DNA of 15,839 nucleotides, from NCBI GenBank assembly GCA_003219995.1, contig QHRC01000083.1:9018-24856 (forward strand), read 5' to 3'. How positions within the stretch are numbered: position 1 is the first letter of the stretch; each line of letters opens with the position of its first letter. This DNA comes from Verrucomicrobiota bacterium. GTDB lineage: Bacteria; Verrucomicrobiota; Verrucomicrobiia; Chthoniobacterales; UBA10450. A program made the translations under genes and the position numbers. Positions 496 to 15,569 of the stretch are shown here, piece by piece. The notes beneath the pieces are model-generated. The model was not told where the DNA came from and searched no databases. It worked only from the letters and a program-made list of their open reading frames with translations.

Positions 496-889
496 GGAAA
501 GATTTCGTCGAGCTTTTTCGCGGTCGACTGCGGACCGTGGACTTTCAGTCGCCCGGTCAAAAAGGCCCATGAGCCTTTGAGCGTTCCATTGGACATCGCG
601 ACCCAATCCTTATCGCTCGTGATAAAGGTGACGCTGGGATTGTCGATCTTAACGTCCCGTCGTTCACGTCGATCCACCACTCGCCGCCGTTCGGGCCACT
701 CAGCTCCCATTGGTAGCGGGCGTGGACTCCTTTTGCTTTCTCAGCGCGAAAACTTTGGCGCATTCCATCGAAAACCTGTTGCGGCGTCGAGTTGTCAGGC
801 TCGTTTGAGGCTGCCCTGGCCCCGCTCAACGAGATCGAAGAGATCATCGCCAGCATTGTCACGCAAACTCTCGCGTTCTTCGCATTCAT
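492..889 (-). pseudogene. SCP2 sterol-binding domain protein, frameshifted
   Basis: Two minus-strand frames together give one SCP2-like domain. The first starts at ATG 889 with a signal peptide (MNAKNARVCVTMLAMISS... to ARA) and runs through FDGMRQSFRAEKAKGVHARY and GGEWWIDVNDGT. The second continues with KIDNPSVTFITSDKDWVAMS, GTLKGSWAFLTGRLKVHG and KLDEIFP, to TAG at 492-494. SCP2 proteins show exactly this order: a W-x-I-x-V-x-D-G strand, then T-x-x-D-x-D-W, then the FLTGRLKVxG helix. Adding one base near 650-656 (G in ACG-GTT) would restore a single frame of about 132 residues. It is therefore a recent pseudogene or a sequencing/assembly error. A TTG at 904 could start the gene earlier, but ATG 889 fits a signal peptide. 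The break coincides with a copy of the AAGATCGACA motif. The protein would be exported and bind a lipid; partner unknown. Confidence 0.6.
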
Positions 890-930
890 AACGGCATTAT
901 CCAAATGATAGATCGTTCCGAGGAGTCATA

Positions 931-952
931 TTGGCCGTTTTCCCATGGCCAA
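931..952. terminator. Weak hairpin between MFS and SCP2 genes
   Basis: TTGGCC (931-936) and GGCCAA (947-952) can pair around a 10-base loop. It lies between the stop of the MFS gene (965) and the start of the SCP2 gene (889), both on minus. The stem is short and has no T-run, so it is at best an attenuator; it may be chance. Confidence 0.2.
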
Positions 953-964
953 GTGCGCCAGACC

Positions 965-2383
965 TCAGCGCAAACTTTTGTCCAGCGGCCCGATCTTTCG
1001 CGTTTCCGGCCAAATCATCGCAATCGCGATTACGGCGAGAATCGTTCCGATCCCCCCGCCGACTACGGACAGGACCGGTCCGAAAAGCGCGGCAGTGAGT
1101 CCTGATTCAAGCGCGCCGAATTCATTCGAAGTGCCGATAAAAATATTATTCACAGCCGAAACGCGTCCGCGCATTTCATCGGGTGTGACCAGTTGCACGA
1201 TCGAGCCGCGGATAATCACGCTCACACTGTCAAAGGCGCCGGCAATAAAAAGCATGCCGAGGGAAAGCCACAACACTTTCGATATGCCGAAAACGATGGT
1301 GGCAATTCCGAAACAGGTCACGCACCAAAGCAAGGCTTTGCCGGCATGTTTCATCGGCGGGAGGTAAGCCACTCCGAGCGCCGTGACAAACGCGCCCACC
1401 GCGGGCGCGGCCCGCATCCAACCGAGACCGATCGGACCGCAATGTAAGATTTGATCGGCATAAATCGGAAGCAATGCGGTCGCTCCGCCAAGCAAGACCG
1501 CAAATAAATCGAGTGTGATCGTGGCAAGAATCACTTTCTTGCTCAAGACGAAGCGCATGCCGGCAATCAAACTCCGCCACGGATTTTTCTCGATCTGGTT
1601 TGTGATTCGCGCGCCGCGGCGAATCGGCAGGACGAGGAGAAAAAACGAAAACGCGCAGAGAGCGTCGAGCGCGTAGACGAATGGGAAACCAGCATGGGCG
1701 ACGAGGAGACCGCTGATGCCGGGTCCGACGACTGATCCGATTTGGAATACGCTGTTGTTCCACGTCACCGCGTTGGCGAAAGCGTCGCGTGAAACAAGCG
1801 TGGGAAAAAAGGAGCTGCGCGCGGCCCAACCAAAAGTGCGAGCCGTTCCGTAGATAAAAAGCAAAAAGTAAATGAGCGGAACGGAAGCGTCATCGAAATG
1901 AAACGCCGGATGGTGGCGTTCGAAGACCGCGGCAATGGCTCGCAATATTCCGTTTCCCTGCCGCAAGATCGTCATGTTTGGAATGACAAGATGTTTCCAG
2001 GAGACCAACGCCAAGGCCACCGAAGCTAGAGCGCTGAAAATCTGCGACACCAGAATTATTCGCTTGCGGCTAAACCGGTCGGCCAGATGACCAGCCGGCA
2101 GGGAGAGCAAGACGACCGGGACCGCGATGACCAGTCCAACGAGACCAAGCGCAGTCGCCGAATGGGTACGCGCGTAGATTTCCCATTCGACCGCGACCGC
2201 GAGCATCTGGCGGCCCATGATCGACAGTAAATTGCCAAGCGTGAACAAGCTGAACCCGGGGGACCGAAACGCAGCGTAGGGATCATGCGACCGCGCTTCC
2301 GGCCGTGGCGGCGGCGTGATCGCGGCGCGTTGGCCGCGTGGCGAATCGTATCGATTTGGTGGCAGGTCGTTTTCTTGCGGCAT
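965..2383 (-). CDS. MFS transporter, EntS / MFS_3-type exporter
   Basis: A 472-residue major facilitator from ATG 2383 (MPQENDLPPNRY); an in-frame GTG at 2413 would add ten residues. About 45 Pro/Arg-rich, disordered residues come first, then roughly 10-12 hydrophobic helices. The first half carries the MFS motif A between TM2 and TM3 (GHLADRFSRKRI). Motifs such as SSFFPTLVSRDAFANAVTWN and GPGISGLLVAHAG match the MFS_3 family (transmembrane secretion effectors, including the enterobactin exporter EntS), found in the inner membrane and driven by proton exchange. An inserted stretch between TM3 and TM4 (WKHLVIPNMTILRQGNGI) widens the usual loop. The substrate cannot be told from sequence, and no siderophore or antibiotic genes lie nearby. 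The SCP2 gene follows on the same strand after about 75 bp and could be co-transcribed. Confidence 0.85.
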   Translation of the reverse strand: MPQENDLPPNRYDSPRGQRAAITPPPRPEARSHDPYAAFRSPGFSLFTLGNLLSIMGRQMLAVAVEWEIYARTHSATALGLVGLVIAVPVVLLSLPAGHLADRFSRKRIILVSQIFSALASVALALVSWKHLVIPNMTILRQGNGILRAIAAVFERHHPAFHFDDASVPLIYFLLFIYGTARTFGWAARSSFFPTLVSRDAFANAVTWNNSVFQIGSVVGPGISGLLVAHAGFPFVYALDALCAFSFFLLVLPIRRGARITNQIEKNPWRSLIAGMRFVLSKKVILATITLDLFAVLLGGATALLPIYADQILHCGPIGLGWMRAAPAVGAFVTALGVAYLPPMKHAGKALLWCVTCFGIATIVFGISKVLWLSLGMLFIAGAFDSVSVIIRGSIVQLVTPDEMRGRVSAVNNIFIGTSNEFGALESGLTAALFGPVLSVVGGGIGTILAVIAIAMIWPETRKIGPLDKSLR

Positions 2384-2528
2384 GTTCGAGCGCGTTCGCA
2401 CGAACACGCGCACCAGATTCTAAATTCCGCAAACGCCGCCGCAACTGCGCGATGCAGATTCCGATGTCGACCTTAAAACGCTACTAGCAGCAGATCCGCG
2501 GGTCGCGCGCGAGAATTTTGCGTAGAGC

Positions 2529-2550
2529 AAACGTTACAAGCGCAACGCGT
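2529..2550 (+). repeat. Partial copy of the cysJ 3' end
   Basis: AAACGTTACAAGCGC followed by AACGCGT matches bases 3855-3876, which encode the end of the CysJ-like protein (KRYKRDV), with only two differences in 22 bases. Both copies are followed within about 20 bases by TTGTAGCTGCCGC, the start of the hairpin repeat. It may be the remnant of a duplicated gene end or part of a longer dispersed repeat. Confidence 0.5.
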
Positions 2551-2702: not shown

Positions 2703-2714
2703 AAGATCGACATG
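2703..2714 (+). promoter_or_regulatory. AAGATCGACA motif at the cysJ-like start codon
   Basis: AAGATCGACATG runs into ATG 2712, in the place where a Shine-Dalgarno sequence would sit; no GGAG-type site is seen. It is one of 14 exact copies in the window (see findings). Whether it acts in translation here is unknown. Confidence 0.45.
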
Positions 2715-3881
2715 CCGGAAGTTACTGCTCCACTCAAAGCCGCCACGTCCGCTTCGCTTTACACGCGAAGCAATCCGTTTCCCGGAAAACTTGTGGTCAA
2801 TCGACGTTTGAGCGGTCCCGAATCGGAAAAGGACACGCGCCATTTTGAGATCGATCTGACCGGATGGGGTCTAAGCTTCGAAGTCGGCGACTCCGTTGCG
2901 GTTTATCCAACCAACGATCCTGATTTAGTTGAGGAAATCATCCACGCACTCGGTGCAAAAGGCGATGAGCCAGTAGCGGCGGGAAAAACTCAAAAGAACT
3001 TTCGCGAGGCCCTTCTGCGCGATTATTCGATCACTCAACCTACGCCTAAGTTTTTGAAAGCGATTACACGACGGGCAAACTCTTCGACCCTGCTGAAAGA
3101 CTTGTTGCAGCCGGAACGCAAGGAAGATCTGGATCGATATCTCTGGGGCATGGAAGTGATCGATTTTTTAAATGAGCACCCTTCGGCAAAGTTTAGCCCG
3201 GAAGAATTCGTTGGGCTCCTCACGAAATTGCAGCCGCGGCTTTACTCCGTTGCGTCAAGCTTGCGCGTCTATCCCGAGCAAGTGCACCTGATCGTCGACG
3301 TGGTCCGCTACGAAAGTCATGGCCGTGTGCGCAAAGGCGTGGCCTCGTCATTTCTGGCTGAACGCGCCGACAATGTTCCTGTGCCGGTTTATCCCAGCTC
3401 GGCAAAGCATTTTCATATGCCCGAAAATCCCGACACCCCAATCATCATGATCGGACCGGGTACTGGCATCGCGCCATTTCGTGCATTCTTGCAAGATCGA
3501 CAGGCCGTGGGCGCGAAAGGGAAGAACTGGCTCTACTTCGGAGCCCAACGAGAGAAATGCGATTATGCCTATAAGGAGGACTTTGATCGATTCAAGCGCG
3601 ACGGTATTTTGACACGATTCGATTGCGCCTGGTCGCGTGACCAAGCCCACAAGATTTACGTGCAGCATAAATTGCTGGAAAACGCAGCGGAAATCTGGAA
3701 ATGGCTCGATTCCGAGGGCGCGCAGTTTTTTGTTTGTGGCGATGCGCGGCGCATGGCGAAAGATGTAGATGCCGCATTGCGTAAAATCGTTCAGGAGCAG
3801 GGCGGTAAGAGCGTGAATGACGCGAACTCTTACGTCGAAAAATTGAAGAGCGATAAACGTTACAAGCGCGACGTGTATTAA
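2712..3881 (+). CDS. Sulfite-reductase-type NADPH flavoprotein lacking the FMN domain (CysJ-like)
   Basis: A 389-residue protein matching only the FAD/NADPH half of CysJ (about 600 residues in enteric bacteria). FAD-binding RLYS is at about 176-179, the flavin/NADP loop RKGVASSFLAE at about 207-217, the nucleotide motif IGPGTGIAPFRAFLQ at about 247-261, then YFGAQRE, WSRDQAHKIYVQ and the CysJ-like tail KRYKRDVY with the terminal Tyr that stacks on flavin. Residues 20-150 form the connecting domain typical of diflavin reductases. The N-terminal flavodoxin domain is absent, and the upstream DNA does not encode it. It would be cytoplasmic, taking electrons from NADPH to a separate carrier or directly to a hemoprotein sulfite reductase (CysI), not in this window. 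ATG 2712 begins MPEVTAPLKA; an upstream ATG in another frame is not used. It converges on the YfhO-like gene with a 4-base overlap. Confidence 0.85.
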   Translation: MPEVTAPLKAATSASLYTRSNPFPGKLVVNRRLSGPESEKDTRHFEIDLTGWGLSFEVGDSVAVYPTNDPDLVEEIIHALGAKGDEPVAAGKTQKNFREALLRDYSITQPTPKFLKAITRRANSSTLLKDLLQPERKEDLDRYLWGMEVIDFLNEHPSAKFSPEEFVGLLTKLQPRLYSVASSLRVYPEQVHLIVDVVRYESHGRVRKGVASSFLAERADNVPVPVYPSSAKHFHMPENPDTPIIMIGPGTGIAPFRAFLQDRQAVGAKGKNWLYFGAQREKCDYAYKEDFDRFKRDGILTRFDCAWSRDQAHKIYVQHKLLENAAEIWKWLDSEGAQFFVCGDARRMAKDVDAALRKIVQEQGGKSVNDANSYVEKLKSDKRYKRDVY

Positions 3882-6175
3882 ATTCTGCTCGAGTTGTAGC
3901 TGCCGCCAGAGACGGCGGCAGCTACAACGCCCGCGACGAAAATTACCACGCACAAGATCGACAATCCCCCGCCCGCGACCAGCCACACCGGCCGGTAAGT
4001 CAGAACAAGATGCCCGTGCAAACCAGCTGGCAGTTCGACCGTCGGGAATAAACCCCGATACGAATCGACGCTAAGCTTTTCGCCTGCGATTTGCGCGACA
4101 TAACCGCGAAAGTATGGACGCGAAAAAGTCAGCAAGGCAACGCGCTGATCGCCTTTCACTGGATCGACATCGGCCTCGACCTGATTTCGCGACTCCGTAA
4201 TTCGTGAAATATTCGCGGGAACAAATTGCTCGCCCGGCCGGGAATCAATCGAAGTAACCGATCGCACTCGCGCAAACGGCGCAACGCGCCGATGAAAGAC
4301 GCGGCCTTCTTTTGTCGACGTGACAAGCCGCCAATCGATCGCCGGCAGTGGATCAACATTCACTTCCGAGGCAACCGCAATTCCGTCAACGCCAAGTCGG
4401 GTCAATAAGCCATCGGCTCCGGCTTGTTCCGTGAGCAAATATTTGCCGAAATCCGGATCGATTTCGCCGTGAATGGCGAAATTGAAGTCGCGTCCCACGC
4501 CGGCGGCAAGAATCGGGCTATAGCCGTTGATAAAATGCAATTCGCCCCACATCGATGTGCTCCCGGGCCGGACAACCTGCCCGACCGGTCCCGTTTTTTT
4601 CTCGATGCGATAGGCGTGTTCGGTCGGCGGATAAATACTCAAATAGAGCCGCTGCCGATCAAGCGGCCCGGCCCCAAGTAATTGTGGATCGAGATTGTAC
4701 TTCGGCACGCCGCAATTCAGCGGGAGTAAAAAGTAAGTTGCCAACAACGCCGCGACAGTGACGCCGGCCGGCATCCAGGCCAGAAGCTGTTTGCTTTGAC
4801 TGGAAAGGAATTCCGAGAACACCCAAAGCAGAGAGAGCCCTAGAAAAATCCATGTGAGTGGGAAAGCATTCGGGCCGTCCGTGTGCAAGATCGACATCGT
4901 GATTGCCGTCAAGGCCACAAGGAGAAATGCAATCATGCCGGGTAACGCAAGAATTTCGCGCGATAGCTGTTGAGGGTGCGCCCTCCGGCCCAGCTGGCGG
5001 AGCGCTTCCGCAGCACACAGCGCAAGAATCAGATGAAAAAACGGCAGCCAGCGAAAACTCCAGCGAAAAACTCCGGCGCTTGGCAGCATCGAGATCGCAA
5101 GAACAAGCAGGAGCAAACCGATCTCCGACCGGATTTTCCGGAGTGACGCCACCTCCGTCTCCGCTTCGCCCGAGAGAGTAAACGGCGATGCTATACGTGA
5201 ATCGCGTATAGCATATTTTGCGACAAACGCCGCGATGAAAGCAGCTGTGGCAACAAGCCCGCAGGACAACTCGGTCGCGGTGTGCGGCATCATTCGCGTG
5301 GAAAAATCGGCCCAGTTCACCGTCCAACACGGCAAAATAAATCCAGGCAATGCGGCGGGCGGAACAAGCCATTGCCAGTGGGCGGACGAGGTTTGCAGCT
5401 CGCGCGCGGAACCATGAACGTAAGCAAAAGCTGCGAGCCAGGCCGGCGCGGAAAGACCGAATCCGAGAGCAGCCCCGAAGAGCAGCGGCAAGATCGACAA
5501 CAGCGTTCGCGTTTGAATGAGCGACCGCAGACAAAGCCACGCGATTAAGAGCACCAGCATTAAAACGGTGTAAGGAAATCCGCCGGTGACGACGAGATAG
5601 ACGAATGGCGCGGGCCACAGAAATCTCCAGCGAGTTCGCTGTCGATCCAGCGCGCGCTCGAGGCCCCACCACCCCCAGGGAAACCAGGCGAACGCGCCAA
5701 GCGCGCCAAACCAGTCGGCCGCGCCCCAACAAATGATCCAGCCATTCAGAGCCGCGACCAATGCGACAAAGATCGACAGTGGGGCGGATAGTTCGCGATC
5801 GCGCGCGAGTAGAAACGCGCCTGCGGCAAGGACGAAAAGATGGATGATAGAAAGTGCGGCGGCTTGTTGGGGAAAGCTGAGTGAAAATTTCCAAACCAGA
5901 ATGACGGCCGCGTTAATGAAAATCGAAAACGTTCCGTATTGAAATTCGCCGGCAAGATTGCTGCAGATCCACGAGTACGGGCTGAGCAACGGGAAATCAC
6001 CTTCAGACCAGCTGCGCGCGACATCGGCAAAGACGGGCAAGATCGACAATTCATAATCGTCGTTCCAAAACGCGAGCGGGTCGCGCCAAAGCAGGATGAG
6101 GCAAAAGGCGACGACGATTAGTCCCGACGCAGTCGCGCCCCAAAAATTCAGCCACTGATTAACACGGATTTTCAC
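3878..6175 (-). CDS. Large polytopic membrane protein, YfhO / GT-C glycosyltransferase-like
   Basis: 765 residues with about 11-13 hydrophobic helices, a soluble periplasmic C-terminal domain (roughly residues 510-720) and a final TM helix. The first loop carries NDDYELSILPVFADVARSW and GDFPLLSPYSW, the acidic pattern seen in YfhO-family and related GT-C enzymes that move sugars from lipid carriers to wall polymers or proteins. That role is inferred from fold resemblance. The only usable start is GTG 6175, because an in-frame TGA lies just upstream and no ATG follows for a long way. This GTG and the first ten or so codons (KIRVNQWLN) lie inside the dispersed repeat 6151-6230. The last codons (AAAVSGGSYNSS) are encoded by the hairpin 3894-3927. 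The gene also contains five copies of the AAGATCGACA complement, all read as (L/M)SI(L/F). It lies downstream of the MBL gene on the same strand. Confidence 0.75.
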   Translation of the reverse strand: MKIRVNQWLNFWGATASGLIVVAFCLILLWRDPLAFWNDDYELSILPVFADVARSWSEGDFPLLSPYSWICSNLAGEFQYGTFSIFINAAVILVWKFSLSFPQQAAALSIIHLFVLAAGAFLLARDRELSAPLSIFVALVAALNGWIICWGAADWFGALGAFAWFPWGWWGLERALDRQRTRWRFLWPAPFVYLVVTGGFPYTVLMLVLLIAWLCLRSLIQTRTLLSILPLLFGAALGFGLSAPAWLAAFAYVHGSARELQTSSAHWQWLVPPAALPGFILPCWTVNWADFSTRMMPHTATELSCGLVATAAFIAAFVAKYAIRDSRIASPFTLSGEAETEVASLRKIRSEIGLLLLVLAISMLPSAGVFRWSFRWLPFFHLILALCAAEALRQLGRRAHPQQLSREILALPGMIAFLLVALTAITMSILHTDGPNAFPLTWIFLGLSLLWVFSEFLSSQSKQLLAWMPAGVTVAALLATYFLLPLNCGVPKYNLDPQLLGAGPLDRQRLYLSIYPPTEHAYRIEKKTGPVGQVVRPGSTSMWGELHFINGYSPILAAGVGRDFNFAIHGEIDPDFGKYLLTEQAGADGLLTRLGVDGIAVASEVNVDPLPAIDWRLVTSTKEGRVFHRRVAPFARVRSVTSIDSRPGEQFVPANISRITESRNQVEADVDPVKGDQRVALLTFSRPYFRGYVAQIAGEKLSVDSYRGLFPTVELPAGLHGHLVLTYRPVWLVAGGGLSILCVVIFVAGVVAAAVSGGSYNSSRI
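3894..3927. repeat. Perfect 14-bp inverted repeat (hairpin) at a convergent gene junction
   Basis: TTGTAGCTGCCGCC (3894-3907) and GGCGGCAGCTACAA (3914-3927) pair perfectly around AGAGAC. It lies 12 bases past the cysJ-like stop and could end that transcript, although no T-run follows. It also lies inside the last codons of the minus-strand membrane-protein gene. The arms match the ends of the composite repeat at 2565-2644, so it is a family member rather than a unique terminator. Confidence 0.8.
5188..5214. repeat. Perfect 10-bp inverted repeat inside the membrane-protein gene
   Basis: ATGCTATACG (5188-5197) and CGTATAGCAT (5205-5214) pair around TGAATCG. On minus it encodes AIRDSRIA in a hydrophilic loop between two membrane helices. 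It may be a small inserted palindrome tolerated by the loop, or chance. Confidence 0.5.
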
Positions 6176-6241: not shown

Positions 6242-7198
6242 TTATAGCACCACGGGTTTGCCTTCAGTCATGACAAGAACTTTGTCCTCGATCCCGTGGT
6301 CGCGGGCGGCGGCCTGCAAACGCTGGAGCGGCTCGTCAAGTGGTTCGTAGCCAAGCCGAAAAGTTCCGTAATGCATCGGCACCAAAACCTTCGCGCCGAG
6401 TTCCGTGAACGCCTTGACCGCCTCTTCCGGATTCATGTGAACTTCGCGGCCGGTCGGCGGGTCGTAGGCCCCGATGGGAAGAAGCGCGATGTCGATCTGG
6501 TAATGATCTCCAATCTCCCTGAAGCCTGGGAAAAAAGCGCTGTCGCCACAATGAAAAATTGTCCGGTTATCCACCGTGACCGCGAACCCGCCAAAGCCGC
6601 GATGCAAGTCCGCCAGAAAACGCGCGCCCCAATGGTAACAAGGCGTTAAGGAAACTTGGAGCGGGCCGAGTCGCACTGTCTGCCAGTAATCAAGCTCGTG
6701 GACAATATGGAAACCGAGATCATGCACCAGGTTACCCACACCGATAGGGACGACGATGGGCTGATTGGCCGCCACTCGCCGCAGCGTTCGCCGGTCGAGA
6801 TGATCGAAATGCGCGTGGGTCACAAGGACGAAATCGATTTCCGGCAAATGATGAATCTCAAATCCGGGCCGCTTCAGTCGTTTGATCACCTTCAGCCATT
6901 TCGACCAGTTCGGGTCGATCAGGACATTGATCTCGTGCGTTTGCAGCAAAAACGAAGCGTGTCCGATCCAGGTGAGACAAATTTCGCCTTTCTCGATCTT
7001 GGGAAATTGCGGCTGAAAACGGTCGCCGGAGCGCCTGACAAAAAGCGAAGGAATCAGGACGCTGGTGAGAAAATTGCGTTTGTGCCAGTCCGGGCGCGGA
7101 CGCAAGCGAACACGGGTCGAGCGTTTCGGGGAAGCGCCATCCTCTGATTTTTGGCGAACGATGTTCCTCCGGCTTTTTTTCGAAAAAGGAATCGGCAC
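6242..7198 (-). CDS. MBL-fold metal-dependent hydrolase, NAPE-PLD / UlaG-like
   Basis: About 318 residues from GTG 7198; an in-frame TTG at 7255 would add 19, and neither start has a good ribosome site. The zinc site is complete: HAHFDH (about residues 128-133 from GTG 7198), His in PCYHWGARF, Asp in HCGDSAFF, and His in VPMHYGTF near the end. The opening WIGHASFLLQ with LIDPNWS, and the segments IALLPIGAYDP and HMNPEEAV, match the bacterial relatives of N-acyl-phosphatidylethanolamine phospholipase D rather than beta-lactamases. Such enzymes cleave a phosphodiester bond in a lipid or other small substrate. There is no signal peptide; the basic N-terminus (KKSRRNIVRQ) suggests a cytoplasmic or membrane-face enzyme. 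It may share a transcript with the membrane-protein gene downstream and is divergent from the DUF1460 gene. Confidence 0.8.
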   Translation of the reverse strand: MPIPFSKKSRRNIVRQKSEDGASPKRSTRVRLRPRPDWHKRNFLTSVLIPSLFVRRSGDRFQPQFPKIEKGEICLTWIGHASFLLQTHEINVLIDPNWSKWLKVIKRLKRPGFEIHHLPEIDFVLVTHAHFDHLDRRTLRRVAANQPIVVPIGVGNLVHDLGFHIVHELDYWQTVRLGPLQVSLTPCYHWGARFLADLHRGFGGFAVTVDNRTIFHCGDSAFFPGFREIGDHYQIDIALLPIGAYDPPTGREVHMNPEEAVKAFTELGAKVLVPMHYGTFRLGYEPLDEPLQRLQAAARDHGIEDKVLVMTEGKPVVL

Positions 7199-7306: not shown

Positions 7307-8194
7307 ATGCGGAACTGGAAATTCATCATTCCTCTGGTTTTGGTTTGCTCAGTCGCGACTGCGGTCGAGACGCGACTGCCGTTCAAAACCGTTTTCAAGG
7401 GGCAAGATCAGTTCAATCGATTGGTCTCGCGAGCAAAGAGCGAAAATTGGAAAGCGCTGCCGATCGGCGAACGGACGGCGGCGGCGGGACAAGCGCTGGT
7501 CGGAACGCGTTACAAGCATTTCACCCTCGAAATCGACAATCGAATTGAAACGCCGTCGGTGAATTTTCAGGGAATGGATTGCTGGACTTTTTTTGAAATC
7601 GCGCTCGCCTTCGCCCGGATGCTGGATGAGCCGGAGGAGAACTGGACGCCCGAGCATCTGCTCCATTACATCGAGCTCGACCGCTATCGCGGCGGTGAAT
7701 GCACTGGCGATTATCTTTCGCGCCTGCATTACCTCGAAGACTGGCTCTACGACAACGATCGGCGCAGATTGATTGTCGATCTTACGCGCGAGTTGGGCGG
7801 AGTAAGCGTTCCGCATTCAGCGCGGGAAATGACAGTTGGCTGGCGGCATTATCGGTATCTTGCCCACAACCGGTCGCTGCTCAGGCCGCTGGCGCAAATG
7901 GAAGCGCGAGTTTCATCTCGACCTCTTTATCAAATTCCAAAACGCCGCGTGGCCGCAGCGGAATCGAAATTGCGCAACGGCGATATCATCGGGATAATTT
8001 CACGCGATCGCAGTGGACTCTACTCAACTGCGCATGTTGGTCTGGCCCTGCGCGCAAACGACGGCGTTCTGCATTTCATGCACGCGTCGTCCCCGGGCAA
8101 TTCAGGAAAAGTCGTGGTGGACGCGCAGTTATCGAAATATCTTTATCGATACGGCAGCGACAGCGGGATCCTGATTGCCCGCCCTCTGCGGTAA
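7307..8194 (+). CDS. Secreted DUF1460 protein, amidase-like cysteine hydrolase
   Basis: 295 residues from ATG 7307, which starts a signal peptide (MRNWKFIIPLVLVCSVATAV); an upstream TTG at 7268 is in frame but would spoil it. The mature part carries the DUF1460 hallmark NFQGMDCWTFFEIAL with the presumed nucleophile Cys92, and later STAHVGLAL with His243 followed by HFMHASS. DUF1460 proteins have an NlpC/P60-like papain fold and are thought to act on N-acetylmuramoyl-L-alanine or related cell-wall peptides; this is known for the family, not shown here. It would act in the periplasm. It ends 67 bases before the ABC binding-protein gene on the same strand, so the two may share a transcript, although the importer has its own ribosome site. 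A copy of the AAGATCGACA complement lies inside (7774-7783, read VDL). Confidence 0.85.
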   Translation: MRNWKFIIPLVLVCSVATAVETRLPFKTVFKGQDQFNRLVSRAKSENWKALPIGERTAAAGQALVGTRYKHFTLEIDNRIETPSVNFQGMDCWTFFEIALAFARMLDEPEENWTPEHLLHYIELDRYRGGECTGDYLSRLHYLEDWLYDNDRRRLIVDLTRELGGVSVPHSAREMTVGWRHYRYLAHNRSLLRPLAQMEARVSSRPLYQIPKRRVAAAESKLRNGDIIGIISRDRSGLYSTAHVGLALRANDGVLHFMHASSPGNSGKVVVDAQLSKYLYRYGSDSGILIARPLR

Positions 8195-8242
8195 TTCGAT
8201 TGCCGGAATCACATCGGCGCTCCATCCTTCGGCAGAATCCTT

Positions 8243-8250
8243 AAGAGGAG
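8243..8250 (+). promoter_or_regulatory. Ribosome binding site of the ABC binding-protein gene
   Basis: AAGAGGAG ends 11 bases before ATG 8262, a longer gap than usual. The gap is filled by the AAGATCGACA motif. This site supports ATG 8262 over earlier in-frame codons. Confidence 0.6.
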
Positions 8251-8252
8251 TA

Positions 8253-8264
8253 AAGATCGACATG
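8253..8264 (+). promoter_or_regulatory. AAGATCGACA motif at the binding-protein start codon
   Basis: AAGATCGACATG leads into ATG 8262, between the ribosome site (8243-8250) and the start. The arrangement is the same as at 2703-2714. Confidence 0.45.
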
Positions 8265-9233
8265 AAACGAATCAGAGTTATGAAAACGTTTTTCTCCATT
8301 TCGCTGGCGATCGCGACGGCGGTCCCGGGTTGGGCGGAAACGAAAATCCGAGTGGGCCACTTTCCGAATGTGACCCACGTGCAGGGATTGGTGGGACATG
8401 CTCTTTCCCGCCAGGGAAAGGGCTGGTTTGAAGAGCGAATCGGCCCGGGGACAAAAATCGAATGGTTCGTTTACAACGCGGGCCCGAGCGCAACGGAAGC
8501 GATTTTTGCCAACTCGATCGATCTTACCTACGTTGGTCCGAGTCCGGCGATCAACGCCTATGCAAAATCGCGCGGCGAAGAAATCCGGATTGTATCGGGC
8601 GCAGCCAATGGTGGAGCGGCGCTCGTTGTCGCAGGAGATAGCTCGTTAAAAAATGCGGCAGATTTTCGCGGCAAAAAAATCGCGACGCCACAACTTGGAA
8701 ATACGCAGGATGTTTCCTGCCGGGCGTGGCTAGCCGCGGGCGGATTGAAGATTACACAGCTGGGTGGCGAAGCGCAGGTGCTGCCAACGCAAAACGCAGA
8801 TCAACTCGCGCTTTTCCAACAGAAGAACGTGGAGGGCGTCTGGACAGTCGAACCTTGGGTCTCGCGCCTGGAAACGGAGGCAGGCGGCAAAGTGCTGGTG
8901 GAGGAAACCGATTCGCCGACCACAGTTCTCGTTTCCAGTGCGAAGCTTCTTCAAGGCAATCGCGCGATGGTGAAGAAATTTGTGGAAGCGCATCGGGCGC
9001 TGACGGATTGGATCGCGAAAAATCCGGTGGAGGCGCAAAAGCTGGTAGCTGCCGAATTAGCGGATGAGACAAAAGCGAAGATGTCGGATGAGCTGATTAC
9101 GCACGCCTGGAAGCGAATTGCGCTGACGAACGAAATCCGCCGCGAAGCGCTCGATAAGTTCGTCGCCAACGCGAAGGCGGCCGGTTTCCTCCGTGATGTT
9201 CCAGATCTGGCGCGCTTGATCGAGAATCCCTGA
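8262..9233 (+). CDS. ABC importer periplasmic binding protein, sulfonate/nitrate/taurine type
   Basis: 323 residues from ATG 8262 with a signal peptide (MKRIRVMKTFFSISLAIATA, cut after GWA). ATG 8280 is an alternative start. The mature chain opens KIRVGHFPNVTHVQGLVGHA, then AGPSATEAIFANSIDLTYVG, PAINAYAKS, DFRGKKIATPQLGNTQD and GVWTVEPWVSRLE. This is the NMT1/SsuA pattern of family 2 solute-binding proteins that bring in aliphatic sulfonates, taurine, nitrate or thiamine precursors. The phrase GKKIATPQLGNTQD is typical of the SsuA-like branch, so an organosulfur ligand is likely but not proven. The stop TGA (9231-9233) overlaps the ATG of the ATPase gene by one base, which shows translational coupling. 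Confidence 0.85.
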   Translation: MKRIRVMKTFFSISLAIATAVPGWAETKIRVGHFPNVTHVQGLVGHALSRQGKGWFEERIGPGTKIEWFVYNAGPSATEAIFANSIDLTYVGPSPAINAYAKSRGEEIRIVSGAANGGAALVVAGDSSLKNAADFRGKKIATPQLGNTQDVSCRAWLAAGGLKITQLGGEAQVLPTQNADQLALFQQKNVEGVWTVEPWVSRLETEAGGKVLVEETDSPTTVLVSSAKLLQGNRAMVKKFVEAHRALTDWIAKNPVEAQKLVAAELADETKAKMSDELITHAWKRIALTNEIRREALDKFVANAKAAGFLRDVPDLARLIENP

Positions 9234-10042
9234 TGTCGCTGCAAGAAGAGCTGCAAGGTCCGCCGCCGGCCAAGCTGATTGTCGAACATGTCTCGAAATG
9301 GTTTCGGCAAAAGCGCCAGACGGTGCATGCGCTGGATGATATCTCGCTCGAAGTCGCTGAGGGCGAATTCATCGTCATTGTCGGTCCGAGCGGTTGCGGA
9401 AAATCGACGTTGCTCGACATCATCGCCGGTTTGGAAAAGCCGGACAAAGGACAGGTGATGGCCGACAATCAGCCGGTGCTCAACCCAGGCCGTCATCGGC
9501 TTGTCATGTTTCAGGAGTCGGCACTGTTTCCCTGGCTCAATGCCTTCGGCAACGTCATGTTCGGTTTGAAATTAAAGCCTGGTCTGCGCAATTCCGAACG
9601 GCGAGAGGTCGCAAAATTCTTCCTCCATCTCGTCGGCCTGGAAAAATTCATGGAAGCAAATGTGCACGAGCTTTCCGGCGGGATGAAACAACGTGTGGCG
9701 CTGGCGCGCGCACTCGCACCGAACCCGCGTGTGCTCTTGATGGATGAGCCGTTTGCCGCGCTCGATGCCATGACGCGCGAGCAGCTTTACGGCGATATCC
9801 AGCGCATTTGGGAGAAGCGCCGCAAAACGATCATTTTCGTCACACACAACGTGCGGGAAGCAGCTTGCCTGGCCGATCGGGTCATGATCATGTCGCCGAC
9901 CCCCGGCCGCATTCGTGAAGTCTTTGAAGTGACGCTGCCGCGACCGCGCGATTTTAATAGCATCCAAATCGCGCAACACGCCTCCAAGCTGACCGCGGCT
10001 TTGAAAGGACACGCGGAGCACGACGCCGTGACCAACGCATGA
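9233..10042 (+). CDS. ABC importer ATPase, SsuB/TauB/NrtD type
   Basis: 269 residues with all ABC motifs in order: Walker A GPSGCGKST (51-59), Q-loop MFQESALFPW (Q94), signature LSGGMKQRVA (147-156), Walker B VLLMDEP (167-173), D-loop ALD and switch His in FVTHNVREA (H205). The Q-loop context ALFPWLNAFGNV and the tail RIREVFEVTLPRPRD are typical of nitrate/sulfonate/taurine importers. It hydrolyses ATP on the cytoplasmic side to drive uptake through the adjacent permease. Start ATG 9233 overlaps the previous stop by one base, and its own end overlaps the permease start by four (ATGA), so the three genes are one translational unit. The last 30 residues (QHASKLTAALKGHAEHDAVT) are a variable tail without recognised function. 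Confidence 0.93.
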   Translation: MSLQEELQGPPPAKLIVEHVSKWFRQKRQTVHALDDISLEVAEGEFIVIVGPSGCGKSTLLDIIAGLEKPDKGQVMADNQPVLNPGRHRLVMFQESALFPWLNAFGNVMFGLKLKPGLRNSERREVAKFFLHLVGLEKFMEANVHELSGGMKQRVALARALAPNPRVLLMDEPFAALDAMTREQLYGDIQRIWEKRRKTIIFVTHNVREAACLADRVMIMSPTPGRIREVFEVTLPRPRDFNSIQIAQHASKLTAALKGHAEHDAVTNA

Positions 10043-10806
10043 GACGTAGCTTGCTCGCGATTTTGTTTTTCGTTTCGCTGGTCGCGATTTGGAGCGCGAT
10101 TGTGCGCGGACAAATTTGGTCGCCAGTATTGCTGCCCTCTCCGCTCAGCGTCTGGAATTATGTGCTCAGCGCCGGGCGCGACGGCACTTTGTTCAGCGCT
10201 TCGATCGTAACGCTGCGCCGGTTGTTGTCCGGCTATGCCATAGGCCTGGCGATCGGATTGCCCCTCGGTTTGTTGACCGCTTCATCGACTTTTGTCGAAG
10301 ACACCATCGGCGTGCTCGCCCTGGGATTGCAGACATTGCCAAGCGTCTGCTGGGTCCCACTCGCGCTGCTTTGGTTCGGGCAAACTGAGAGTGCAATGCT
10401 TTTTGTCGTGATCATGGGAACGGTCTGGTCGGTGGTGATCGCGACCGATACCGGCGTGCGCACGATTCCGCCCATCTATGCGCGGGCCGCGCGGACGATG
10501 GGCTCGAGACCGTTCCATAAATGGACGCGCGTCATTTTGCCGGCATCGCTGCCCTATTTGGTGAGCGGAATGAAACAAGGCTGGGCTTTTGCTTGGCGCT
10601 CACTCATGGCCGCGGAAATTTATGTGACCATTCTCACCGGATTCGGTCTCGGCCATCTCTTGCATTACGGACGCGAACTCAACGCGATGGACCAGGTTAT
10701 CGGAATCATGCTGGTGATCATTGTCATCGGATTGCTCGCGGACAAAATTCTCTTCTCCCCGTGGGAACGTTTTCTCCATCGCCGCTGGGGGACGGGAAAA
10801 CGCTAA
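10039..10806 (+). CDS. ABC importer permease, SsuC/TauC type
   Basis: 255 residues with about six membrane helices. The EAA loop that docks on the ATPase is clear: AARTMGSRPFHKWTRVILPASLPYL, near residues 150-175 (given here as separate motifs AARTMGSRPF and ILPASLPYL). The start of the chain, SPVLLPSPLSVWNYV, and the segment GMKQGWAFAWRSLMAAEIYV are characteristic of the sulfonate/taurine/nitrate permease family. ATG 10039 overlaps the ATPase stop. The gene ends 15 bases before the stop of the convergent kinase gene, with no obvious terminator between them. With one permease gene the transporter would work as a homodimer. Confidence 0.92.
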   Translation: MRRSLLAILFFVSLVAIWSAIVRGQIWSPVLLPSPLSVWNYVLSAGRDGTLFSASIVTLRRLLSGYAIGLAIGLPLGLLTASSTFVEDTIGVLALGLQTLPSVCWVPLALLWFGQTESAMLFVVIMGTVWSVVIATDTGVRTIPPIYARAARTMGSRPFHKWTRVILPASLPYLVSGMKQGWAFAWRSLMAAEIYVTILTGFGLGHLLHYGRELNAMDQVIGIMLVIIVIGLLADKILFSPWERFLHRRWGTGKR

Positions 10807-10821: not shown

Positions 10822-12840
10822 TTAACCAGCGGCCGCCAAGACAGGCAACTCGATCACAAATGTGGCACCTTTACCGAGTCCTTCGCTGCTTGCGCGAATC
10901 GTGCCCCCGTGCATCTCGATGGTGGCTTTGCCAATGGCCAGACCCAGGCCAAGCCCTTCCCGGCGCGAATCGACCTGCTCGAAGGCATCGAAAATTTTCT
11001 CGAGCGACTCCGGGGCGATGCCCACGCCGCTGTCACTGATCTCGATGACGAGCGAGTTCGGCCTCGGGTTATATGAACGTGCGGAAATCGTGCCGCCTTC
11101 CGGCGTGAATTTGCAGGCGTTGCGAAACACGTTCCAGAAAACCTGTTGCAGGCGCGGAGGATCCACATGGACCTCATGGCGCGCGGCGTCGAGAAACAGA
11201 GAAAGTTTGAGATGTCGATCTTCGATTTCGCTGCGGACAATTTCCAACGCCTCCCCAAGCAATTCGTGCGCATCGGCGGAGCGAAGTTGAAGCTGTAATT
11301 TGCCGCGCGAGATGCGGGTGAGATCGAGCAGATCGTCGATGAGCCGCGCCTCCAGTTCGACATTGCGGCAAACCATTTTCAGTCCTTCCTCCACCTCCGG
11401 GCTAAGACCTGGTTGATTTACGGTTCCGCCCGCCCAGATCAGCACCGGCGTGAGCGGAGTGCGCAGCTCGTGGCTGAGCGTGGCGAGAAACCGGTCCTTG
11501 GCCGCATTTGCCGCCTCGGCCCTATCTTTCTCCCGTTGTAATTCCTGCTCGATCCGGCGCCGCTCGATAAAGAGCCCGATTAGACTCCCGAAGGCTTCGA
11601 CCAGTTGCAGCAAGTCGGGGTCGGGTTCGACCACGTGCTCACTGAACATCTCGATGACGCCATTGATGGCACGCCCCGCAAAAAGAGGAAAGGCAAAGCC
11701 GCCGCGCAATCCCGCCTCCACCGCCCCGGGCGCTCTCGGAAAATTCGGATCGACCGTGACGTCGTAAATCCAGGTCGGTTTCTCCGATTCCCAGACTCGG
11801 CCGGGCAGACCTTCGCCTTTTTTGAATTGAGTGGAACGCGAGACCTCCGCGAACTTTTCCAGGTTTTCCGCCCCTCCATGCCAGATGGATCGACAACCCA
11901 ACAGTCCAGCCTCAAAATCGTAAAGCCACAGCGCGCTCAAAACCCAATTATCGATTGACGCGATGGTTTGGAGAATTGCTGAACTCGCCTCGCCAAGCGT
12001 CCAAGATTCGGCCAGGAGACTCGCTACAGCGTATTGCGCCAGACGCCGGCGCTCAATCCGGACGCGCTCGGTAATGTCCCGCGCAATTTTTGAAGCCCCG
12101 ACGACATGCCCATTCTCATCTTTGATGGGCGAAACGGTCAGTGAAACATTCAATAACATTCCGTCTTTACGGCGGCGAACGGCATCGTAATGATGGATGC
12201 GCTCGCCTCGATGGATCCGTTCGAGAATGCCGGGCTCTTCATCGCGGCGCTCCGGTGGAACCAAAATCGTGACCGATTTGCCGATCACTTCGTCGTGCTT
12301 GTAGCCAAAGAGTTGTTCTGCTCCCTCGTTCCAACTAGTGATCTCGCCTTCGAGGTCTGTGCTAATGATCGCGTCCGCAGAAGCTTCGACAATCGCAGCT
12401 AGCCGGCTTCTGGCAGTCTCGCCCCGTTTGCGCTCGGTGATGTCACGCAGGTAGGCCGTGAAAAAGTGGGCGCCGTTGATTTTAAATGGAGTGATGGCGA
12501 GCTCGACTAGGATTTCGGAGCCATCGCGCCGCAGCGCTTCGATCTCGATTCGTTTTCCGAGCAAGGGTCCTTCCCCGGTCTGCAAATAACGAGCAAGTCC
12601 TAGTCGATGTTGCGCGCGCATGCGGGCAGGGACGATCAGCTCGGCCAGTTCTGTGCCAACTGCTTCCGCACGGCTAAAACCGAACACGCGTTCGGCCGCG
12701 GGATTGAATTCGCGGACGCGACCGCTGCCGTCGATGGTAATGATGCAATCGAGCGCGGATTCCAGGATGGCGCGATTGAGCGTCTCTGCCCATTCCGGCA
12801 GAATCTGCTCCACGTCGCCTTCTTCTCGCTTTGATCCCAT
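10822..12840 (-). CDS. Soluble PAS-PAS-GAF sensor histidine kinase
   Basis: 672 residues from ATG 12840, without membrane helices or a signal peptide. Domains in order: PAS at about 20-135 (NRAILESALDCIITIDGSGR... ending AYLRDITERKR), PAS at about 145-260 (ending KIARDITERVR), GAF at about 265-430 (GLPGRVWESEKPTWIYDV, GGFAFPLFAGR), HisKA with phosphoacceptor His457 in FLATLSHELRTPL, then HATPase_c with N-box NVFRNACKFTP (N574), G1 DSGVGI (603-608) and G2 GLGLGLAIGK (629-638). All catalytic residues are present. It has no receiver domain and no response regulator lies beside it, so it is an orphan kinase. The PAS and GAF domains suggest a cytoplasmic redox, light or small-ligand signal, not identified. 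The sulfotransferase gene lies 74 bases upstream on the same strand and may be co-transcribed. Confidence 0.9.
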   Translation of the reverse strand: MGSKREEGDVEQILPEWAETLNRAILESALDCIITIDGSGRVREFNPAAERVFGFSRAEAVGTELAELIVPARMRAQHRLGLARYLQTGEGPLLGKRIEIEALRRDGSEILVELAITPFKINGAHFFTAYLRDITERKRGETARSRLAAIVEASADAIISTDLEGEITSWNEGAEQLFGYKHDEVIGKSVTILVPPERRDEEPGILERIHRGERIHHYDAVRRRKDGMLLNVSLTVSPIKDENGHVVGASKIARDITERVRIERRRLAQYAVASLLAESWTLGEASSAILQTIASIDNWVLSALWLYDFEAGLLGCRSIWHGGAENLEKFAEVSRSTQFKKGEGLPGRVWESEKPTWIYDVTVDPNFPRAPGAVEAGLRGGFAFPLFAGRAINGVIEMFSEHVVEPDPDLLQLVEAFGSLIGLFIERRRIEQELQREKDRAEAANAAKDRFLATLSHELRTPLTPVLIWAGGTVNQPGLSPEVEEGLKMVCRNVELEARLIDDLLDLTRISRGKLQLQLRSADAHELLGEALEIVRSEIEDRHLKLSLFLDAARHEVHVDPPRLQQVFWNVFRNACKFTPEGGTISARSYNPRPNSLVIEISDSGVGIAPESLEKIFDAFEQVDSRREGLGLGLAIGKATIEMHGGTIRASSEGLGKGATFVIELPVLAAAG

Positions 12841-12914: not shown

Positions 12915-13706
12915 TCAATGCCGATTAGAAGCAACCGCTGCGTGTTCGTTGGCCTCGTAACCAAAATCAGGATTTAGCCGCCGCAATGCATAAATCGCAT
13001 ATTGTCGATCTTGGGCGAAAAGATAATCCTCGTAGCCGCCAATCTTGCCGCGCCGCACTTTGAATGACTCAGGGTCACGTATGTCCCGGGCCTGGAGAAT
13101 TTTGGAATCGAAGACGCCAGCTGCCTCCAGTTTTTGCATGTTGCCAAACTCGGAAAAATCGAGCGCATCCTGAAAGATCGACATGTCAGGCTCGGTTTCG
13201 TCGAGCAAAGCGAGCAACGCGCGAAATTGTTCGGCCGGGGCCGCGCGCACCGATTCATATTGCAGGAGGGAAAAGTTCCGGTGGCCTGAAAATTCATCCA
13301 ACCAATCGTTCATCGTTTGAACAATGGATCTGATCCCAAACCGCTGGTCGCGTAGCATCTCGCTGATGGTTCTCTGGCCAAATTCGGCTCGCATTCCGGG
13401 ATCGCGCCTGGTCATTTGCAAATAGAGCGAAACAAAAACATCGCGCGGATCGCGCGCGAGCAGCACGATTGTCGTCCGGCGAAGCTCTTTCGCGGGAACC
13501 AGGTATTTACCGCGGATTGTGTCCCAAAGGTCCCCCTTCGTCCTATGCTCAAATAAGTCATGTGAATAAATGACGCGTGGAATCGTCCGATCGCCGTACC
13601 GGTCCGGTGTGAGCGTGAACTCATGGCCGCCACGCTTGCAAAAGTAAGCGCACAGAAACGTTCGCAGCCAAGTGCGTCCGCTTTTCGGGACCGAGAGGAC
13701 GATCAT
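12915..13706 (-). CDS. Sulfotransferase domain protein (PAPS-dependent)
   Basis: 263 residues from ATG 13706. The 5'-phosphosulfate loop is VPKSGRTWLR (6-15) and the 3'-phosphate site is LLARDPRDVFVSLYLQ (about 82-97, with Arg85 and Ser93), the two defining motifs of PAPS-using sulfotransferases. YSHD (H49) sits where the catalytic base is expected. It would transfer sulfate from PAPS to a hydroxyl or amino group; the acceptor is unknown. Bacterial members act on lipids, sugars or peptides. The start is set by a strong ribosome site, GGGAGGGG, just upstream. The frame stays open to a TTG at 13820, but that extension would enter the tmRNA promoter region. It lies upstream of the kinase gene and is divergent from the tmRNA gene. 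Confidence 0.85.
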   Translation of the reverse strand: MIVLSVPKSGRTWLRTFLCAYFCKRGGHEFTLTPDRYGDRTIPRVIYSHDLFEHRTKGDLWDTIRGKYLVPAKELRRTTIVLLARDPRDVFVSLYLQMTRRDPGMRAEFGQRTISEMLRDQRFGIRSIVQTMNDWLDEFSGHRNFSLLQYESVRAAPAEQFRALLALLDETEPDMSIFQDALDFSEFGNMQKLEAAGVFDSKILQARDIRDPESFKVRRGKIGGYEDYLFAQDRQYAIYALRRLNPDFGYEANEHAAVASNRH

Positions 13707-13708
13707 GT

Positions 13709-13843: not shown

Positions 13844-13857
13844 TTATCCTCCAGAAT

Positions 13858-14215: not shown

Positions 14216-14270
14216 AAAGGCTACGTTTGGCGAAAAAACAAAATAAGCCTTCCCAACTCGATCTCTCACA

Positions 14271-14279
14271 TGCTATAAA
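14271..14279 (+). promoter_or_regulatory. Extended -10 promoter before the small secreted protein
   Basis: TGCTATAAA is an extended -10 (TGn plus TATAAA, 14274-14279). Only a poor -35 (TTCCCA, 14250-14255) is present, as is usual for extended -10 promoters. The start would be near 14286, 35 bases ahead of ATG 14321. Confidence 0.45.
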
Positions 14280-14320
14280 CATCATAATTCTGATAACGAT
14301 AGCGCTCTCTTTTCGCTTTT

Positions 14321-14770
14321 ATGAATCCTCGCCTCCTGACCAAGATCGTCTACCATTGCGCACTCCTCCTTGCTTGCCTCACCCTCAGCGCCCGACCGCA
14401 GCAACCAGTTCTTCTCACTCCACAAGAAAACGATCTCGTCGTGCTAAATGGCTGCGTTATTTCCGCTTGTAATTATTTGGCCTTGGTCAAAACACAGCAC
14501 AGTCTGGATACGGATTTTTCGGCGAAAATTCTTCTCGTCCGCTACAACGGGCATCCAGCCGGCCATGCCTATTGTATATGGGAAACCGATGGAGCGATCT
14601 ATGGCTACGATCGCAACGCCGGCTCGTTTCCGATTCCCGTTTACACGCGCGACGCTCGATCCATTGCCATCGTTCTCGCACAGCAGCTCGGCAAAGTTCT
14701 CGATCAGCCGCTTTCGGTAAACCAGGCGGAATTTGTCGAACCGCAACACGCTGACGTCTACAAATTCTAA
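14321..14770 (+). CDS. Small secreted transglutaminase-like cysteine protein, function unknown
   Basis: 149 residues from ATG 14321 with a signal peptide (IVYHCALLLACLTLSA). I do not recognise it as a named family. The mature protein has Cys45 and Cys50 in NGCVISACNY, His82 in PAGHAYCIWE and Asp97 in IYGYDRNAGSF. The spacing and the HAYCIWETDGAIYGYDRN context resemble the Cys-His-Asp triad of the transglutaminase-like fold (H-A-W...D-G-x-x-Y-x-x-D), so a cross-linking, peptidase or inactive role is possible. This is inference from motif shape only. There is no clear ribosome site before ATG. It lies downstream of tmRNA and has its own likely promoter. It converges on msrA with 81 bases between stops and no strong terminator in that space. 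Confidence 0.65.
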   Translation: MNPRLLTKIVYHCALLLACLTLSARPQQPVLLTPQENDLVVLNGCVISACNYLALVKTQHSLDTDFSAKILLVRYNGHPAGHAYCIWETDGAIYGYDRNAGSFPIPVYTRDARSIAIVLAQQLGKVLDQPLSVNQAEFVEPQHADVYKF

Positions 14771-14851
14771 CTGCGATCGATCTAAAGGCGCGCGCACCCT
14801 TGGAATCGAGGCGGCCGGTGGCAAAACTTCGCGCCCGAAACACCCGCTTAC

Positions 14852-15460
14852 TCACGGCGATTTGCTCCACGTCTTCGCCTGAAACGAAACGCGTCCGGAG
14901 CCTTGCTCGAATTCTTCAAAACGCTCTGCGTTCTGCTGGTAGTATTTCTGGTGATAGGCTTCGGCCGGATAAAATTTCATGAGCGGCAGAATCTCAGTCG
15001 CAATCGGTTTATCGAACTTTCCTGATTGCGCCAGTTTTTCTTTCGAGGCTTCGGCGATTTTTTTTTCCTCATTGTCGCCGTAAAAAATCGCGGCCCGATA
15101 GCTCGGCCCAATATCGGTAAACTGGCCGTCCGCCTGGGTCGGATCGATTTGTCGCCAGTAAATATCGAGCAGTTGATCGAAGGAAATTTTGGCTGGATCG
15201 TAAGCGATCTCAATCGACTCGCGATACTTAGTCTTCTCCGAACCGACTAATTCGTAGGTTGGATTTGGTTCGGTCCCTCCACAATAGCCGACAACGGTCT
15301 TGATCACGCCCGTGGCCTTGTCAAAAGCGGGCTGGATGCACCAAAAACAACCGCCGGCAAAGACTGCCGTCTTTGTCTTCGCGCCAGCCGACTCCGGCGC
15401 GCCGGTAAGATCGGCAATCAATGCAAACGTAATGAGAAGAAGAGCAAAATATCTTTTCAT
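14852..15460 (-). CDS. msrA: Secreted peptide methionine sulfoxide reductase A
   Basis: 202 residues from ATG 15460 with a signal peptide (MKRYFALLLITFALIADLTG). Longer in-frame starts toward 15772 would put the signal sequence inside the protein and overlap the divergent DUF4383 gene, so they are rejected. The catalytic Cys38 lies in GGCFWC; the substrate-site Glu is kept in KYRESIEI and Asp/Tyr in TDIGPSYRAAIF. Two things differ from common relatives: the residue after FWCI is Gln (usually Glu in GCFWxxE), and there is no Cys near the C-terminus. Cys41 or Cys60 (GYCGG) could act as the resolving thiol. It repairs S-methionine sulfoxide outside the cytoplasm and would need a thioredoxin-type partner, not seen here. 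A copy of AAGATCGACA lies three bases before ATG. Confidence 0.93.
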   Translation of the reverse strand: MKRYFALLLITFALIADLTGAPESAGAKTKTAVFAGGCFWCIQPAFDKATGVIKTVVGYCGGTEPNPTYELVGSEKTKYRESIEIAYDPAKISFDQLLDIYWRQIDPTQADGQFTDIGPSYRAAIFYGDNEEKKIAEASKEKLAQSGKFDKPIATEILPLMKFYPAEAYHQKYYQQNAERFEEFEQGSGRVSFQAKTWSKSP

Positions 15461-15463
15461 GGT

Positions 15464-15473
15464 TGTCGATCTT
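15464..15473 (-). promoter_or_regulatory. AAGATCGACA motif before msrA
   Basis: On minus it reads AAGATCGACAACCATG, so the motif lies three bases before the msrA start, in the ribosome-binding region. No GGAG-type site is present there. Confidence 0.45.
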
Positions 15474-15565: not shown

Positions 15566-15569
15566 AACG

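Follow-up and report, generated by a model that had tools for sequence, protein, structure and literature searches.

Sequence words that mark DNA for specific uptake have been described for two bacterial families, the Neisseriaceae with their DNA uptake sequences (DUS) and the Pasteurellaceae with their uptake signal sequences (USS) (PMC3630211, PMC7811141). Uptake signals lie about 1 kb apart and are rare in newly acquired segments, and drive is sufficient to account for them (PMC7811141). The USS are evenly spaced; in Haemophilus influenzae 1,471 copies are exact and 764 carry a single mismatch (PMC1939737). Here we examine the 10-mer AAGATCGACA, which was found in a stretch of 15,839 nucleotides from a Verrucomicrobiota bacterium (the window; contig C200, positions 9018-24856). 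The assembly of the source genome, G000, is 2.097 Mb in 285 contigs and 77% complete. With somewhat more confidence than doubt, we propose that the word is a dispersed self tag of one Candidatus Udaeobacter-related family, that it acts like an uptake signal, and that its likeness to DUS and USS is convergent.

Abundance of the word and its restriction to one family

In G000 AAGATCGACA occurs 996 times, 497 on the forward strand and 499 on the reverse, and the reversed word, counted as a control, does not occur at all. A fourth-order Markov model predicts 3.2 copies in 247 kb of this genome, where 140 were observed. Statistics for a second genome, G142, are drawn from 49 pieces that cover 980 kb of 2.9 Mb, with genes called by a simple script. 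These pieces hold 1,610 copies; 5.3 were expected. AAGATCGACA is the top over-represented 10-mer over the same Markov model in 4/4 genomes tested. The first-pass annotation, which was made from the window alone, had named a count near expectation, or an enrichment confined to the window, as grounds for giving up its reading of the word. Neither was observed.

Copies were counted in 213 genomes of the order, 83 in family f1 and 130 in other families (genus and family numbers such as g1 and f1 are labels internal to this analysis, not taxon names). The four genomes of g1, the genus of the window, have 996-1,509 copies. Copies per genome are 715 in g2, 1,070 in g3, 147-1,016 in g4 (6 genomes), 4,653 in g11 (G142), 760 in g12 (G143) and 74-755 in g14 (35 genomes). 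The 11 genomes of g5 have 22-85, the 23 genomes of g6-g10 and g13 have 9-69, and 0-46 copies were counted in each of the 130 genomes from other families. When 288 genomes were sampled across the phylum, the A/T-extended form of the word occurred 671-4,514 times in three members of the family and at most 37 times in the other 285. High counts are found only in f1. The word therefore rose within one family, and its abundance varies many-fold among close relatives. No comparable dispersed word was found in 20-40 kb samples of six genomes from other families of the order (G003, G019, G031, G054, G086 and G206). The samples contain only GA repeats, in G206, and weak low-count words.

A ComEC alignment matched 77 loci in named genomes, and the nearest of these are in metagenome-assembled genomes that bear the labels Verrucomicrobia, Chthoniobacterales, Spartobacteria and Candidatus Udaeobacter. 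NCBI places Candidatus Udaeobacter in Verrucomicrobiota, Spartobacteria, Chthoniobacterales. Judged by these relatives, the source of the window is a Chthoniobacterales soil lineage close to Candidatus Udaeobacter. A literature search that mostly did not extend to subscription journals found no report of AAGATCGACA or of uptake words in this bacterial group. Papers containing either AAGATCGACA or the second word described below were, among the matches listed, unrelated by title and the start of the abstract.

The window holds 14 exact copies, compared with a mean of 0.06 and a maximum of 1 in dinucleotide shuffles, and every coordinate and strand given by the first-pass annotation was borne out. 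As it had also claimed, the base right after the copy is A or T in 12/14, and copies lie within genes, on either strand and in several frames. Twelve of the 14 are inside seven named genes; the copies at 641 and 2703 are outside them. With up to one mismatch allowed, 20 places were found where 1.25 were expected. The annotation had counted one-base variants as part of the set, and 3/6 one-mismatch places (1965, 6490 and 15407) are exact in at least one relative of the same genus. The 20 places are as follows.

641..650, minus strand: motif copy AAGATCGACA, not in any of the named genes
2703..2712, plus strand: motif copy, its final base the A of the ATG start of an FAD/NAD oxidoreductase gene
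3493..3502, plus strand: motif copy in the FAD/NAD oxidoreductase gene, sense
3954..3963, plus strand: motif copy in a YfhO-like gene (Pfam match below cut-off), antisense
4887..4896, plus strand: motif copy in the YfhO-like gene, antisense
5490..5499, plus strand: motif copy in the YfhO-like gene, antisense
5769..5778, plus strand: motif copy in the YfhO-like gene, antisense
6039..6048, plus strand: motif copy in the YfhO-like gene, antisense
7774..7783, minus strand: motif copy in an AmiA-like gene, antisense, VDL frame
8253..8262, plus strand: motif copy in an NMT1-type substrate-binding protein gene, sense, KID frame
11213..11222, minus strand: motif copy in a PAS/GAF histidine kinase gene, sense
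13003..13012, minus strand: motif copy in a sulfotransferase gene, sense
13174..13183, plus strand: motif copy in the sulfotransferase gene, antisense
15464..15473, minus strand: motif copy in an MsrA gene, sense
1965..1974, plus strand: one-mismatch copy AAGATCGTCA; G149, G150 and G151 have the exact motif here
6490..6499, minus strand: one-mismatch copy CAGATCGACA; G149 and G151 have the exact motif here
15407..15416, plus strand: one-mismatch copy AAGATCGGCA; G150 has the exact motif here
2217..2226, plus strand: one-mismatch place ATGATCGACA from the window scan
2465..2474, minus strand: one-mismatch place AAGGTCGACA from the window scan
6991..7000, minus strand: one-mismatch place AAGATCGAGA from the window scan

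The window copies were compared at aligned sites in four relatives with 78-87% DNA identity. They are kept at 9/13, 9/13, 7/11 and 6/10 sites, while random aligned 10-mers, a baseline not matched for codon position, are kept at 34, 27, 30 and 12% in the same relatives. Conservation at orthologous sites, a check proposed by the first-pass annotation, is above that of random 10-mers in 4/4 relatives.

Two other features of the window were recorded. Consecutive genes for an NMT1-type binding protein, an ATPase and a permease (8175-10806) match the family of nitrate/sulfonate-type ABC importers. In the product of the MsrA gene (14852-15772) the MsrA domain occupies residues ~134-284 of 305, and the N-terminal part has no Pfam match.

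Genomic placement and form of the site

Copies of AAGATCGACA are balanced between the strands. On three joined contig stretches of G142 (460, 360 and 100 kb, origin and terminus not mapped on them) with 773, 584 and 164 copies, per-strand counts are 378/395, 309/275 and 71/93. Spacing was tested in G142 only, with pairs no more than 20 bp apart collapsed and random placement that kept the split between genes and intergenic regions. Gaps of 30-200 bp are depleted, 186 vs 327 expected (30-100 bp, 61/149; 100-200 bp, 125/178). Gaps of 200-800 bp are enriched, 862 vs 618 expected (200-400 bp, 364/273; 400-800 bp, 498/346), and gaps of 1.6-3.2 kb number 70 vs 111 expected. The bin below 30 bp (15 vs 71) is biased by the collapsing and was left out of the result. 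Strand skew and even spacing were both among the checks that the first-pass annotation had proposed.

Genes hold 1,252 of the 1,610 copies in G142 (1.41 per kb), 676 antisense and 576 sense. Intergenic density is 3.05-4.35 per kb depending on the type of gap, approximately three times the genic density, and convergent gaps are not preferred over tandem ones. In G000, 120/147 copies are in genes, at 0.55 per kb vs 0.26-0.87 per kb in the gaps. Across 920 kb of G142 the motif is missing for at most 13.0 kb at a time, in a stretch that encodes a phage-type integrase together with ABC-3C and DUF2326 proteins. This island (L104:1958-14430), in which the ABC-3C match is a C-terminal domain, is perhaps a defence island.

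The word leaves a clear mark on proteins. It is read in the VDL frame at 470 copies in G142, in the KID frame at 341 and in a cysteine-containing frame at only 8. The VDL tripeptide occurs 529 times vs 112 expected from amino-acid frequencies, and 479 of these are in motif codons vs 13 expected. KID occurs 387 times vs 45 expected (358 motif-coded) and RST 146 times vs 59 (107 motif-coded). VDL without motif codons is below expectation, 50 vs 109. Because the excess of VDL, KID and RST is nearly all motif-coded, the word must be maintained at the DNA level, in agreement with the first-pass claim that DNA rather than protein is being kept. The effect is weaker in G000 (observed/expected: VDL 71/25, KID 52/10, RST 31/16). 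G147, which does not have the word and was represented by only 101 kb, shows no excess (VDL 8/10, KID 3/2). The ComEC of G142 itself contains four motif copies, two of which alter a residue common to 8/10 other aligned proteins.

Flanking sequence was examined at 217 single intergenic copies in G142. C-G-C precedes the core, A or T follows it in ~99%, and a weak tail reaches ~8 bases beyond the core and ends in T-rich positions. Specificity extends over ~20 bp, so that the proposed binding site would reach beyond the 10-mer and comprise CGC, the core, A/T and the weak tail. One-mismatch copies are also in excess, 402 observed vs 120 expected for the 30 single-base variants in 980 kb of G142. 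The best represented variants are A1>T (87 observed, 1.1 expected), G3>C (44, 5.5) and C9>G (36, 6.6), and core positions 5-7 are nearly invariant. The ratio of exact to one-mismatch copies is 1,610:402 here and 147:141 in 257 kb of G000.

Copies also occur as head-to-tail pairs. Among same-strand neighbors less than 60 bp apart in G142, 91/109 are at 15 bp (55) or 16 bp (36), and the spacer sequences vary from pair to pair. When near-copies are included the same-strand peaks are 62-64 at 15 bp and 41-43 at 16 bp. Opposite-strand near-copies within 80 bp of the 1,610 copies show no such peak (at most 10 per offset, mean 1.8), and inverted pairs, looked for in G142 and G000, were not found. A same-strand pair with a 0-20 bp spacer is present in 24/83 family genomes, and G142 alone has 263. 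Outside G142, 92 pairs were listed, with spacers of 5-6 bp in 64, 15-18 bp in 21 and other lengths in 7; these classes were counted by hand, and some pairs look orthologous and hence are not independent. The pair centers are ~1.5 and ~2.5 helical turns apart, suggesting that a protein makes phased contact with the helix. Head-to-tail pairs 15-16 bp apart are a new feature relative to DUS and USS.

A viral scan for the double site found none with a 5-bp spacer and two with a 6-bp spacer. In two viral contigs (L278 and L279, GC 0.67-0.68) direct repeats similar to TTCAAGATC(G/A)AC are clustered at 15-17 or 21 bp, among them exact AAGATCGACA pairs at 16 bp. One part of L279 shows weak similarity to Thermobifida phage P1312. 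The repeats possibly represent convergence on the same paired site.

A second word and the competence genes

A second word, GCCTAACGA, occurs 1,410-4,605 times in g13 (4,605 in G147), 2,147 times in g10 and 1,802 times in G142, which carries both words in abundance. Counts are 94-587 in g6-g9 and 0-30 in other families, and in g5 and g12 the word is about as frequent as the control word. Its enrichment is thus in a sister clade and in G142. Copies of GCCTAACGA were located on L051-L060, L102-L140, L141-L211 and L238-L243; the window has 0. Like AAGATCGACA it intrudes on G142 proteins (PN[DE] 236 observed vs 61 expected, SLG 215 vs 115), and it avoids itself within 100 bp. It is not enriched in intergenic regions of G142 (0.61 vs 0.87 per kb), and its edge positions are loose. 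AAGATCGACA lies within 100 bp of 265 GCCTAACGA sites vs 229 by rotation, which indicates no mutual avoidance.

Among the 35 genomes of g14, the denser one word is, the sparser the other tends to be (rho -0.49; -0.64 against the control word; partial rho on genome size -0.40), in correlations that all ignore kinship. A ComEC tree was built with 36 rows; two g5 rows were dropped for lack of a match, g3 and g9 were left out, and the root is not settled. In this tree the GCCTAACGA-rich genomes, G142 excepted, form one clade (96/99). The ComEC of G142 (L059:11210-13708), the genome with the highest motif density, sits on a long branch (0.6) and at 833 codons is longer than most. The two words look like the dialects of Neisseriaceae. 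Since they are unrelated, do not avoid each other and differ in style, they may instead be two systems.

The first-pass annotation had recommended a search for competence genes, and these are common. ComEC was found in 76/83 family genomes, DprA in 74/83 and PilT-family ATPases in 81/83; in the 30 best family genomes the numbers are 29, 29 and 30. A ComEC gene lies on the contig of the window itself (C200:26364-27170), 1.5 kb past its right end. Weak matches to ComP_DUS (PF16732), with E up to 0.01, are present in 56/83 family genomes. A prepilin of G142 has such a match (22.6 bits vs a cut-off of 27.3) and also carries the pilin N-terminal motif.

Uptake signal or chromosomal binding site

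Among the functions suggested in the first-pass annotation, an uptake sequence fits best, on the number of copies, strand balance, spacing, mismatch tail, flank, family restriction and competence genes; uptake itself we infer from these. The intrusion into proteins and the second word in the sister clade also match descriptions of uptake signals. AAGATCGACA would be the core recognized by a DNA-binding protein, and the likeliest such protein is a receptor for natural transformation on the surface or at the pilus tip. Cells would prefer tagged DNA for uptake and then recombine it. A mutation that makes a new tag or finishes an incomplete one would hence pass between cells more often than one that destroys a tag. 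Such molecular drive could fill both strands of the genome, at roughly one tag every 0.6-2 kb, mostly where proteins tolerate it. A new tag near an existing one would gain little, leading to even spacing, and a second site in the same direction one and a half helical turns on would be favored.

The closest parallels are with DUS and USS. Uptake signals in general are 9-12-mers that are strongly over-represented on both strands and evenly spaced, in bacteria with competence machinery (ComEC, DprA, type IV pilus), and the present word agrees with this, as regards spacing in G142. DUS likewise have a 10-mer core, hundreds to thousands of copies, genic copies and permissive intergenic regions, and their dialects include different words in related lineages and two words in one genome (PMC3630211). 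USS of the Hin type share a strict inner core with a weaker flank, a one-mismatch tail and even spacing of ~1/kb (PMC1939737, PMC7811141). They are under-represented in newly acquired segments (PMC7811141, PMC1939737), and uptake signals in general also in rRNA genes; here one 13-kb integrase island is motif-free and 12 further long gaps in G142 are mixed. Unlike the USS, the flank here is mainly one-sided and only partly A/T, the pairs are direct and the word is unrelated. By eye AAGATCGACA resembles neither the DUS words nor the two USS words, the latter as given in PMC3630211. The present word also differs from DUS in its phylum and in the direct 15-16 bp pairs of G142. Inverted pairs are frequent in Neisseria. 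Of the features that define DUS proper, neither a related word nor a ComP match above cut-off nor inverted pairs were found here.

Several results weigh against an uptake signal. ComP_DUS is above cut-off in 0/83 family genomes. ComEC, DprA and PilT are equally common in motif-poor genera and so do not explain who has the word. The HHH_3 (ComEA-type) domain is found in 43/83 and is absent from the motif-bearing, near-complete genomes G143 and G111, which rules it out as the factor deciding the presence of the word. Intergenic enrichment in G000 is slight, with 27/147 copies outside genes vs ~22 expected by length. Of 13 G142 gaps longer than 2.7 kb only the longest is clearly mobile; the other 12, whose genes were partly identified, hold ordinary or mixed genes, one of them PilM-like. 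Finally, same-strand pairs at 15-16 bp without inverted pairs also suit a cooperative chromosomal protein.

Such a protein is the main rival. A nucleoid-associated, repair or replication-linked protein that organizes the chromosome would bind the word head to tail in a cooperative manner, and copies would be kept at a set density because binding at regular intervals is selected for. Even spacing, strand balance and intergenic enrichment in G142 agree with this, as do the 15/16 bp pairs and the 15-18 bp spacer set at ~1.5 and 2.5 turns. However, a range of 74-755 copies within g14 and a sister clade that lacks the word and carries another are odd for a structural need, protein-altering selection at hundreds of sites is costly without drive, and no candidate protein was found. 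We regard this explanation as unlikely, though to be taken seriously. A polar replication or repair signal such as Chi or KOPS is highly improbable. About one thousand copies of Chi are present in E. coli, near the number here, but Chi/KOPS-type motifs are strand-biased within a replichore and on the three G142 stretches (460, 360 and 100 kb) AAGATCGACA is not clearly polar. On this strand balance the polar motifs were rejected, and the segregation motif raised by the first-pass annotation is disfavored with them.

It is improbable that methylation or mismatch repair creates or keeps the word, as proposed for HIP1 of cyanobacteria. HIP1 is also a very frequent, dispersed word that contains GATC, is replaced by other words in some lineages, and has been linked with GATC and CGATCG methyltransferases (PMC4390886). 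HIP1 is palindromic and tied to methyltransferases, whereas AAGATCGACA is asymmetric. GATC outside the word is not enriched: 920 kb of G142 contain 8,428 GATC vs 8,128 expected, and subtraction of the 1,521 motif copies brings the count below expectation. This speaks against the plain GATC methylation context that the first-pass annotation had considered. In addition, the usual methyltransferase site is shorter than the ~20 bp of specificity observed here, and one-mismatch copies include changes away from the ends (G3>C, C9>G). The ~3-fold intergenic enrichment and the spaced pairs of G142 would be in line with a miniature mobile repeat or with a site bound by a global regulator of transcription. 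Either is very unlikely given that most copies there are inside genes in both orientations, and that flanks and pair spacers vary by copy, unlike a transposed unit. The assemblies are metagenomic and AGATCG occurs both in the word and in a common sequencing adapter, which raises the matter of an assembly, adapter or low-complexity artefact. Its chance is negligible: the word is found in assemblies of several genera, lies in amino-acid-compatible frames of open genes and is conserved at orthologous sites, and an artefact was ruled out on these grounds.

If the word is an uptake signal, a more specific proposal can be made, which we hold only tentatively. It would be the third independent uptake-signal system and the first in Verrucomicrobiota, in a soil lineage, with AAGATCGACA and GCCTAACGA as unrelated dialects of sister clades that meet in G142. 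Its receptor would favor double sites arranged head to tail 1.5 turns apart. Even if the word does not serve uptake, the several hundred VDL and KID tripeptides that it has added to the examined part of one proteome make a strong case that DNA-level forces shape proteins. A third unrelated origin would provide an independent test of drive versus selection for such words. It would also mean that bacteria which are largely uncultured still have sex by transformation, and would provide a label for which free soil DNA these cells favor.

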